Source: Pseudomonas sp. MM213
GTDB taxonomy: Bacteria; Pseudomonadota; Gammaproteobacteria; Pseudomonadales; Pseudomonadaceae
Assembly (NCBI RefSeq): GCF_020423045.1
Contig: NZ_CP081943.1
Location: 6,324,001 to 6,388,000 of the forward strand
Direction of reading: 5' to 3'
DNA: 64,000 bases
Shown: positions 24,069-49,019 of the stretch, piece after piece
Layout of the letters: every line of letters starts with the position of its first letter
Numbering within the stretch: the stretch's first letter is position 1
Translations under genes and position numbers: made by a program
The notes under the pieces: generated by a model
What the model was told of the DNA's origin: nothing
Databases searched by the model: none
The model's input: only the letters and a program-made list of their open reading frames with translations

Positions 24069-24319
24069 GTACATATCCGTTTCTGTGGTTACGGCTGCTA
24101 TCGGTTTCGCCCTTACGGCGAGTCACTTGGAAGAGCCCCAAGTAACCAAGGGCTCTTGCCCCTTTCGTTCGGTGCCTCGCTGTGGCTCGGCATACCCTCG
24201 CTCCGGTCCTGCTCCGTGGGCCCGCCGCCATCGGCCATCCCTGGCCGGGGGCGGCTAACCCGGCATCCATGCCGGGTTGCCCACTGCGCAGAACCTGCGC
24301 TCGGCCTCTCGAGGGGGCG
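24069..24319 (+). repeat. Left arm of a 251-bp inverted repeat
   Basis: Begins GTACATATCCGTTTCTG and ends CTCGAGGGGGCG. It matches the reverse complement of 24848-25098 at about 91% (roughly 22 mismatches counted by eye) with equal length. Sequences of this kind recur between genes in many Pseudomonas genomes from memory. Confidence 0.9.
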
Positions 24320-24847: not shown

Positions 24848-25098
24848 CGCCCCCTCGAGAGGCCGAGTGGAGGTTCTGCGCAGTGGGCAACCCGGCATGG
24901 AGGCCGGGTTAGCCGCCCCCGGCCATGGATGGCCGATGGCGGCGGGCCCACGGAGCAGGACCGGAGCGAGGGAACCCTGAGCCTTGGCGAAGGGCCGAAC
25001 GAAAGGGGCAAGAGCGCTTGGTTACTTGGCGCTTTTCCAAGTAACTCGCCGTAAGGGCGAAACCAATAGCAGCCATTACCGCAGAAACGGATATGTAC
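24848..25098 (-). repeat. Right arm of the 251-bp inverted repeat
   Basis: Reverse complement of the left arm at 24069-24319; the 528-bp spacer contains the REP cluster. Its outer end, GGATATGTAC, runs straight into the AACCCC tract. Confidence 0.9.
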
Positions 25099-47168: not shown

Positions 47169-47315
47169 ATGTACGCCGTGACTCATCTCTATCTCTCCCC
47201 GTGGGGCGGTTTTCCTATCGCTCACGCCGACGACCCGCAAAGGTCTGACTCTCTTTTTGCAGCCGCCCGAAACCCTCGGGGCGGACACAGGCAATCCCGG
47301 CAACCGACGCGCTGA
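47169..47315 (+). CDS. Possible 48-aa small ORF upstream of aroP
   Basis: ATG 47169 is preceded by AAAAGGAGG at ideal spacing, one of the best ribosome sites in the window. The peptide starts MYAVTHLYLSPWGGFPIAHA and becomes Arg/Gln-rich; no family is recognised. Codon third positions are not strongly GC-biased, so it may be a leader, a remnant or chance. Confidence 0.3.
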   Translation: MYAVTHLYLSPWGGFPIAHADDPQRSDSLFAAARNPRGGHRQSRQPTR

Positions 47316-47326
47316 TCCAGCGGTGT

Positions 47327-47355
47327 CTGGCAGCAGGGGGTTAGCGGTGTACAAT
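47327..47355 (+). promoter_or_regulatory. Candidate sigma-70 promoter for the aroP leader
   Basis: CTGGCA (47327-47332), 17 bp, TACAAT (47350-47355). The start point would lie near 47362, giving a leader RNA of about 245 nt before aroP that contains the 20-codon ORF. Confidence 0.5.
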
Positions 47356-47483
47356 GCGCCGCGTTTTACCTGTGACCTCCTGCGCACCTGCGCAAACCTC
47401 AAGGCTATCCGCCTTGTTCACTCCGCCGCGTCACGAGCGTGTCGGGTTCGATTTCGTCACAGATAAAAACAAACAGGTGACGC

Positions 47484-47546
47484 ATGACCGTTGTAAATAC
47501 GCTGAACTCCTGGTGCCTGCGCTGGGGTTTGATCGGCGCTGCTTAA
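47484..47546 (+). CDS. Candidate 20-aa leader peptide of aroP
   Basis: ATG 47484, with AGGTGA just upstream, opens a 20-codon ORF reading MTVVNTLNSWCLRWGLIGAA and stopping at TAA 47546. Two Trp codons (10 and 14) in so short a peptide, and its place 60 bp before an aromatic amino acid permease, suggest a regulatory leader. No terminator hairpin is seen after it; the spacer is C/A-rich and poor in structure, more like a Rho-dependent region. Function is inference. Confidence 0.5.
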   Translation: MTVVNTLNSWCLRWGLIGAA

Positions 47547-47606
47547 AGTCGCAACCGAGCAGCAACGTCTATTGAACATCATCAAACCTTGCGTGAGACC
47601 CTTTTC

Positions 47607-49019
47607 ATGAGTGGACAAAACTCGCATTCAGGCGAGCTGAAACGCGGCCTGAAGAATCGTCATATTCAACTGATCGCCCTCGGTGGCGCGATTGGTACCG
47701 GCCTGTTCCTCGGCTCGGCCGGTGTACTGAAATCCGCTGGCCCGTCGATGATCCTCGGCTACGCCATCTGCGGCTTCATTGCCTTCATGATCATGCGCCA
47801 GCTCGGCGAAATGATCGTCGAAGAGCCGGTGGCCGGTTCCTTCAGCCACTTCGCGCACAAATACTGGGGCGGTTTCGCCGGTTTTCTGTCGGGCTGGAAC
47901 TGCTGGATCCTGTACATTCTGGTGGGCATGTCGGAGCTGACCGCCGTCGGCAAATACATCCACTACTGGGCACCGGAGATCCCGACCTGGGTCTCGGCAG
48001 CCGGGTTCTTCGTGCTGATCAACCTCATTAACCTGGCCAACGTCAAAGTCTTCGGCGAGGCGGAGTTCTGGTTCGCGATCATCAAGGTTGTAGCGATCGT
48101 CGGCATGATTGCCCTGGGCAGCTACTTGCTGGTCAGCGGGCACGGCGGACCGGAAGCGTCGGTGACCAACCTGTGGTCCCACGGTGGTTTCTTCCCGAAT
48201 GGCGTCAGTGGTCTGGTGATGGCCATGGCGATCATCATGTTCAGCTTCGGTGGCCTGGAAATGCTCGGCTTCACCGCAGCAGAAGCGGACAAACCGAAAA
48301 CCGTGATCCCGAAAGCGATCAACCAGGTGATCTACCGGATCCTGATTTTCTACATCGGCGCACTGGTCATCCTGCTGTCGTTGACGCCATGGGACAGCCT
48401 GCTGGCGACCCTGAACGCCTCCGGCGATTCCTATAGCGGCAGCCCGTTCGTGCAAGTGTTCTCGATGCTCGGCAGCAACACCGCCGCGCACATCCTCAAC
48501 TTCGTGGTGCTGACCGCGGCGTTGTCGGTGTACAACAGCGGCACCTACTGCAACAGCCGCATGCTGCTGGGCATGGCCGAGCAGGGCGATGCGCCGAAAG
48601 CCCTGGCGAAGATCGACAAGCGCGGCGTGCCGGTGCGTTCGATCCTCGCTTCGGCGGCGGTGACGCTGATTGCGGTGCTGTTGAACTACCTGATCCCGCA
48701 AAACGCGCTGGAACTGTTGATGTCGCTGGTGGTGGCCACGTTGGTGATCAACTGGGCGATGATCAGCTATTCGCACTTCAAGTTCCGCCAGCACATGAAC
48801 AAGACCAAGCAGACGCCGCTGTTCAAGGCCCTGTGGTATCCGTACGGAAACTACATCTGCCTGGCGTTCGTGGTGTTCATCCTTGGCGTGATGCTGTTGA
48901 TCCCGGGCATTCAGGTTTCGGTGTACGCGATTCCGGTGTGGGTCGTGTTCATGTGGATTTGCTACGGCATCAAGAACAAGCGCAGTGCTCAACAAACGTT
49001 GCAGGCTGCAATGAAATAA
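47607..49019 (+). CDS. aroP: Aromatic amino acid permease (AroP-like APC transporter)
   Basis: A 470-aa, twelve-helix amino acid permease. It opens with LKRGLKNRHIQLIALGGAIG and TGLFLGSA, the motif of the AAT branch (AroP, PheP, GabP and others), and carries EMIVEEPVAGSFSHFAHKYW. The neighbouring arfB and phhABC-phhR genes match the setting of aroP2 (PA0866) in P. aeruginosa, so import of phenylalanine, tyrosine or tryptophan is likely. I start at ATG 47607 (MSGQNSHSG); the upstream start at 47589 is weaker. The ribosome site is poor, compatible with control through the leader. Confidence 0.88.
   Translation: MSGQNSHSGELKRGLKNRHIQLIALGGAIGTGLFLGSAGVLKSAGPSMILGYAICGFIAFMIMRQLGEMIVEEPVAGSFSHFAHKYWGGFAGFLSGWNCWILYILVGMSELTAVGKYIHYWAPEIPTWVSAAGFFVLINLINLANVKVFGEAEFWFAIIKVVAIVGMIALGSYLLVSGHGGPEASVTNLWSHGGFFPNGVSGLVMAMAIIMFSFGGLEMLGFTAAEADKPKTVIPKAINQVIYRILIFYIGALVILLSLTPWDSLLATLNASGDSYSGSPFVQVFSMLGSNTAAHILNFVVLTAALSVYNSGTYCNSRMLLGMAEQGDAPKALAKIDKRGVPVRSILASAAVTLIAVLLNYLIPQNALELLMSLVVATLVINWAMISYSHFKFRQHMNKTKQTPLFKALWYPYGNYICLAFVVFILGVMLLIPGIQVSVYAIPVWVVFMWICYGIKNKRSAQQTLQAAMK

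Follow-up and report, generated by a model that had tools for sequence, protein, structure and literature searches.

A leader ORF upstream of aroP in Pseudomonas and its probable descent from a different transporter gene

In Pseudomonas sp. MM213 the gene of an aromatic amino acid permease (aroP) is preceded by a short open reading frame (ORF) with two tryptophan codons. This arrangement raises the question where such a leader comes from and whether its translation takes part in the control of the permease gene. In an earlier note on this DNA, sensing of tryptophan or a TnaC-like stalling of ribosomes was suggested. The locus was analysed within a window of 64,000 nucleotides, the whole stretch of DNA under study, to which all positions refer (Table 1).

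Layout of the aroP control region

The leader ORF, which ends with a TAA codon at 47544–47546 and encodes the peptide MTVVNTLNSWCLRWGLIGAA, was confirmed by reading the sequence, and so were its good ribosome site and the gap of 60 bp to the ATG of aroP. The promoter-like pair proposed upstream of it was also found in a scan of positions 47200–47800, but shuffled sequences contain 0.3 such pairs on average (sd 0.6), so that the single pair says little by itself. As had been noted, the same scan revealed no terminator-like site 3′ of the leader; the only one in this region is located upstream of it (47344–47362), and an intrinsic terminator between leader and aroP, as in a classical transcription attenuator, is absent from the scanned region. 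Just one element of the earlier description of the layout did not hold, namely a featureless spacer, since positions 47582–47598 are almost invariant among relatives and complementary to leader codons 12–17.

Table 1 Features of the aroP control region in the window
Feature	Position	Strand	Basis
Promoter-like pair CTGGCA-17-TACAAT; its −10 half (47350–47355) from maiA Tyr-Asn codons	47327..47355	+	Scan, alignment
Relic of the 3′ end of the maiA coding sequence (VYNARRFNCDL codons), holds the −10 element	47345..47384	+	blastn, alignment
5′ untranslated region (UTR), from the maiA-SNF intergenic region	47406..47483	+	84–90 % identity in 12 of 12 SNF regions
CA motif AAAAACAA (AAnAAnAA), candidate Hfq/Crc site	47465..47472	+	Sequence; consensus from the accessible part of PMC3480352
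Leader ribosome site AGGTGA	47475..47480	+	Sequence; columns unchanged over 104 loci, the named ones of which were chosen by a pattern that includes this site
Leader ORF, 20 codons, probable relic of SNF codons 1–20	47484..47546	+	DNA similarity to the starts of SNF genes
Almost invariant block TGCGCTGGGGTTTGA, putative 5′ stem arm	47518..47532	+	Change counts, consensus fold
Almost invariant block TCAAACCTTGCGTGAGA, putative 3′ stem arm and aroP ribosome-site region	47582..47598	+	Change counts, consensus fold
aroP, aromatic amino acid permease	47607..49019	+	NCBIfam, Pfam

The best NCBIfam fit of the permease is AroP (PRK10238) with 704 bits, which is under the equivalog cut-off of 848, and the product also matches the Pfam family AA_permease. 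A second AroP-like permease, 73 % identical to that of the window, is encoded in the same genome (G000:C1:5440952-5442313). The leader peptide of 20 amino acids has no match in NCBIfam, and a scan of the whole window against Rfam at the gathering threshold gave no family at the leader locus. Elsewhere in the window two matches to the TwoAYGGAY RNA (RF01731) exceed the gathering score, at 24218–24282 on the minus and 24885–24949 on the plus strand, about 600 bp apart.

Origin from maiA and a sodium symporter gene

Positions 47340–47700 were used as a query in 149 genomes of the genus, the own one included, and 144 of them gave a match. By similarity, aroP-type loci were fetched from 78 genomes and loci with a sodium:neurotransmitter symporter gene (SNF; Pfam PF00209) from 12, the other 59 genomes (5 without match) being left out. 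In addition, the pattern of CA motif and ribosome site was found in at least 118 loci of named public genomes; among the matches listed (118), it is followed by aroP in 98 cases and by SNF in 18, while two sequences are too short to judge. After removal of identical copies and of loci with too short upstream sequence, the aroP set comprised 156 distinct loci, 78 found by similarity and 78 by the pattern among the matches listed, so that for half of the set the ribosome site was part of the search motif.

The leader and its 5′ region match the starts of SNF genes at 79–81 % in all 12 SNF loci. These genes typically begin with MTREKPKNLWLSRWGFILAATGSAVGLGN.. where the window has MTVVNTLNSWCLRWGLIGAA, and both tryptophan codons of the leader come from SNF (NLWLSRWG). 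Further upstream, the matches to the gap between maiA and SNF span at most 47406–47484, and this gap holds an A-rich motif of the Crc/Hfq type and a ribosome site. The next stretch, 47345–47384, was again matched in 12 of 12 SNF regions (blastn); it is located inside maiA in 11 of them and between hpd and SNF in the remaining one (L246). The gene order of the relatives is hpd-..-maiA-SNF: within regions of 20 kb, SNF adjoins maiA with hpd nearby in 11 cases and hpd alone in the twelfth. Leader and flank are thus homologous to an intact gene and to its upstream neighbour in relatives. What was matched belongs to the coding sequences of maiA and SNF, which makes it clear in which direction inheritance went. 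The leader is therefore almost certainly the preserved first 20 codons of a different transporter gene, SNF, whose control region was taken over by aroP. For the spacer between leader and aroP no match was found in the 17 compared loci at E ≤ 0.01.

The promoter seems to have been acquired together with this region. Among 14 aligned SNF loci the −10 site reads TATAAT in nine and TACAAT in two, three being uncovered; an exact search with GT[GC]TACAA[TC]G had found only 3 of 26 SNF loci, a pattern too narrow in view of the TATAAT in 9 of the 11 covered loci. Two loci (L246 and L094) have no intact maiA between hpd and SNF and still retain the maiA tail fragment with TATAAT. Taken together, the aligned −10 sites and this retained fragment indicate that SNF is probably transcribed from a promoter within the 3′ end of maiA, which was then inherited by aroP. 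On the aroP side the −10 region reads exactly GTACAATG in 132 of 156 loci and nearly so in one more; 17 of the 23 loci off this pattern are P. putida types with GTATACA[AG]TGCG.

The best solved relative of SNF is a bacterial sodium-dependent transporter (4us3), which we take to be MhsT, a carrier of hydrophobic amino acids. The neighbourhood of maiA and hpd makes an aromatic substrate of SNF likely. SNF itself was detected in 76 of 248 genomes of the family, belonging to 5 of 19 genera (E ≤ 1e-180), and the genome of the window contains only a 48 % relative. Among 14 SNF-bearing handles, AroP (E ≤ 1e-120) is present in G008 and G150, with 66 and 73 % identity, and absent in 12, two of which (G060 and G152) are apparently the same genome. 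Conserved synteny with arfB was considered as a further link and rejected: arfB occurs 4.1 and 4.7 kb beyond SNF in just 2 of 12 SNF regions of about 19–20 kb, which lends little support where the maiA relic is a strong link. The left neighbour differs in genomes with SNF, since in the five regions inspected rluB is followed by a gene on the opposite strand of about 308–316 amino acids which is neither aroP nor SNF.

Leader types, selection and conserved blocks

A standard leader is present in 108 of the 156 aroP loci, with exactly 20 codons in 105, 29 in two and 19 in one. The other loci comprise eight of a P. fragi type, three with a longer relic, one frameshifted and one other, six with a deletion of 84 nt, nine with aroP fused to the leader start, and 18 in which aroP directly follows the UTR (17 of the P. 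putida type and L092); the UTR motif was lost in two of the 156. Motif retention was scored solely in the 78 loci found by similarity, a set which is itself biased to retention: 76 of them keep both the CA motif and AGGTGA, and the CA motif is lost in L061 and L070. The 27 direct or fused loci all have the start of aroP 3–8 nt 3′ of the same motif and ribosome site; this start coincides with the aligned aroP start in 17, precedes it by one codon in nine and follows it by two codons in one. Types without a leader are dispersed over the aroP tree, for which the P. putida group served as root, and this is compatible with loss of the leader or with its never having been there.

All six loci with the 84-nt deletion (L059, L060, L062, L118, L125 and L172) have a short ORF of 13 codons (12 in L125) whose stop codon overlaps the ATG of aroP. 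The junction, read in L059, L060 and L062, is CTGAAC|GTGAGA or near it. Their scattered positions on the aroP tree suggest either recombination between lineages or a recurrent event.

Selection was examined in 104 of the 108 standard leaders, four having too little aroP sequence, on a tree built from aroP codons; the parsimony counts take this aroP tree as the tree of the leader. In codons 2–11 there are 64 amino acid changes and 23 silent ones (dN/dS about 1.1), and this first half of the peptide looks unselected. The values for codons 2–20 are 0.66 (P = 0.014) overall and 0.82 (P = 0.17) without codons 12–16, and for codons 17–20 about 0.36 (P = 0.004). With fewer amino acid changes than expected in codons 12–20, and in view of the ratios of 0.66 for the whole leader and 0.36 at its end, some selection at the amino acid level may act on the second half. 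The frame, on the other hand, is well kept: changes that create a stop in codons 2–16 number zero against 4.56 expected (P about 0.01), and the only indels are one of 3 nt in a single locus and one of 2 nt in the last codon of two loci, the sole one to change the frame. The alignment of aroP upstream regions proposed in the earlier note has a divided outcome, with a leader in 108 of 156 loci and a maintained frame but neutral change in codons 2–11 and loss of the first tryptophan (Trp10) in 8 of 104. Judged from these patterns, the leader ORF is more than a chance reading frame, and sequence evolution backs the idea that the leader is conserved, probably translated and likely to have a role in regulation.

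Two blocks hardly change at all. The parsimony count is 7 for 47518–47532 against about 143 at the spacer rate, and 1 for 47582–47598 against about 162; for comparison, third positions of aroP show a mean of 9.07 changes per site and the first 14 sites of the spacer between 3 and 14, mostly at least 8. Codons 12–16 carry 12 silent and three other changes. All 12 silent ones are in codon 12, either at its first base, where a C-G pair becomes U-G, or at its third, for which the consensus fold shows no partner. Codons 13, 15 and 16, three in a row with Trp14 between them, show no change at all at the third base, whereas 450 nt of aroP contain only 6 unchanged among 139 degenerate third positions and never two in a row.

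In a consensus fold, based on an alignment without the long relics, L065 and L070, the two blocks pair with each other by 14 pairs, each kept in 93–96 of 96 unique sequences. Variation in these sequences is one-sided, without compensatory changes that would prove the pairing, because the blocks are nearly invariant. Exact cores of both arms occur in 106 of 108 standard leaders and in all eight P. fragi types. Among the 123 leader-type loci the 5′ core is missing in five (three long relics, L065 and L043), the 3′ core in five (L116, L061, L070, L065 and L157), and a core on at least one side in eight (L043, L061, L065, L070, L071, L072, L116 and L157). The fold of the leader-aroP RNA is not more stable than that of shuffled sequences (z 0.32 and −0.65), and 8–11 % of shuffled leaders or spacers pair equally well. 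Little beyond this stem is shared, as the consensus energy of −10.9 kcal/mol compares with a mean of −36.3 kcal/mol for single sequences. In L025, L027 and L028 the leaders, which end in LIKVG, carry CAAGGTTG, exactly complementary to CAACCTTG of the spacer of the same locus, while sister sequences have GGCTGC and GCAGC instead; this is possibly a templated change in an inverted repeat.

Three other explanations have to be weighed against a regulatory stem opened by translation. The leader could be a pure fossil, inert together with its upstream region and kept only for promoter and ribosome site, with aroP translated independently. Such a reading accommodates the neutral first half, the many loci without a leader or with a rearranged one, and the non-significant folds, but we consider it unlikely in view of the near-invariant silent sites of codons 13–16, the complementary block at the aroP ribosome site and the 104 leaders without a stop before codon 20, whose frame is changed by nothing but the 2-nt loss in the last codon of two. 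A frameshifted locus outside this set (L058) likewise argues against a fossil, as both arms are retained there and the ORF stops at the start of aroP.

Still less probable is a tryptophan sensor, in which ribosomes that stall at Trp10 or Trp14 for want of Trp-tRNA, or in the manner of TnaC at high tryptophan, would alter the expression of aroP. Two tryptophan codons among 20 beside an aromatic permease do call for this idea; both are kept in 95 of 104 leaders and one in the other nine, a ribosome that halts at Trp14 would mask the stem's 5′ arm, and the reduced number of amino acid changes in codons 12–20 would fit as well. However, both codons are a heritage of the SNF N-terminus, Trp10 is replaced by Phe, Arg or Gly in eight leaders, and it is surrounded by codons which change at the neutral rate, so that sensing was discarded as the main reading. 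Trp14 is kept in 103 of 104 leaders, but its block hardly changes at silent sites either, and a constraint at the RNA level can thus explain it. Selection at the amino acid level on the tryptophan codons, a trait of TnaC and trpL, was not found in the 104 leaders, and the absence of a terminator-like site after the leader (47200–47800) also speaks against such a sensor. The last alternative, invariant blocks that serve a small RNA or a protein on a DNA inverted repeat instead of a leader-aroP stem, gains from the lack of compensatory changes but is improbable as well, since the blocks are complementary and situated as expected, and the frame stays open too; that no Rfam family matches the locus at the gathering threshold says little about a novel small RNA.

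Proposed coupling and known systems

The evidence suggests that translation of the leader still helps to switch on aroP and does not serve to sense tryptophan. Translation would start at the strong ribosome site inherited from SNF, and moving ribosomes would open the stem between leader codons 12–17 and the block at the ribosome site of aroP, which would permit translation of aroP. Hfq/Crc bound to the candidate CA motif would leave the leader untranslated, the stem closed and aroP off. The open frame should matter for such a device and at least the first half of the peptide should not. This role of leader translation is proposed because the open frame, the weak peptide conservation in the first half, the CA motif and the two-arm stem all fit it. 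In a simple ribosome-block model the aroP ribosome-site region opens (0.26 to 0.41; 94 of 104 leaders), but the accessibility of the aroP AUG falls from 0.36 to 0.19, which speaks against the scheme. The leader-less loci fit as well, because there aroP itself directly follows the same ribosome site, and the 84-nt deletion has removed both arms where it occurs.

A takeover of the control region from SNF, combined with a stem that is opened by leader translation and relays Crc/Hfq control, is on the whole somewhat favoured by these data. For the coupling of leader translation to aroP as such the chances appear about evenly balanced. The complete scenario is more tentative and falls somewhat short of even odds: the tail of maiA became a promoter and the head of SNF a leader ORF that, largely regardless of the encoded peptide, unlocks the RNA stem by being translated and relays catabolite repression by Crc/Hfq 140 nt downstream, while in leader-less lineages aroP is directly under the same motif or an overlapping ORF is.

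The locus offers a traceable example of the source of a bacterial leader ORF. A transporter of apparently similar role took over the control region of another, and the initial codons of the old gene seem to have survived as a control element. For the prediction of leader peptides this calls for caution, as conserved tryptophan codons can be due to heritage and RNA constraint and not to sensing. In the searched part of the open-licence literature, neither a leader before this aroP nor a leader ORF left by a displaced gene is described.

The tnaC and trp leader peptides are encoded by short tryptophan-containing ORFs upstream of genes connected to aromatic amino acids, and the peptide or its tryptophan codons act as the sensor. 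The aroP leader shares this arrangement, but the first half of its peptide is neutral and no terminator follows it. In the translational attenuators of ermC and cat the 5′ arm of a stem is situated in the leader ORF and the 3′ arm at the next ribosome site, which is also the geometry of the predicted aroP stem; those systems respond to drug-stalled ribosomes, whereas for the aroP leader no inducer is known.

Control of an aromatic amino acid permease by Crc has been demonstrated for P. aeruginosa aroP2 (PA0866), where mutation of the CA motif abolished it (PMC3480352, accessible part). This gene, which may not be an orthologue of the window aroP, likewise has a CA motif near a start codon; the motif is located at the permease's own start, and the available text describes no leader ORF. 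P. putida AroP2 is listed in a table of predicted Crc targets compared with data of a crc mutant (PMC3003667, as far as available). The closest parallel in mechanism is cbrX-cbrA of P. putida, where, according to the accessible text, cbrA depends on the upstream ORF being translated but not on the sequence of its peptide, and where the authors proposed Hfq/Crc control via coupling from a predicted Hfq/Crc site in the cbrX mRNA leader (PMC6591292). Unlike the aroP leader with its gap of 60 nt and conserved complementary block, cbrX overlaps cbrA by 17 nt, and it is not described there as a relic of another gene. Both systems have in common a small upstream ORF with a candidate Hfq/Crc site in the mRNA leader, which in the window lies as a CA motif beside the ribosome site of the leader.
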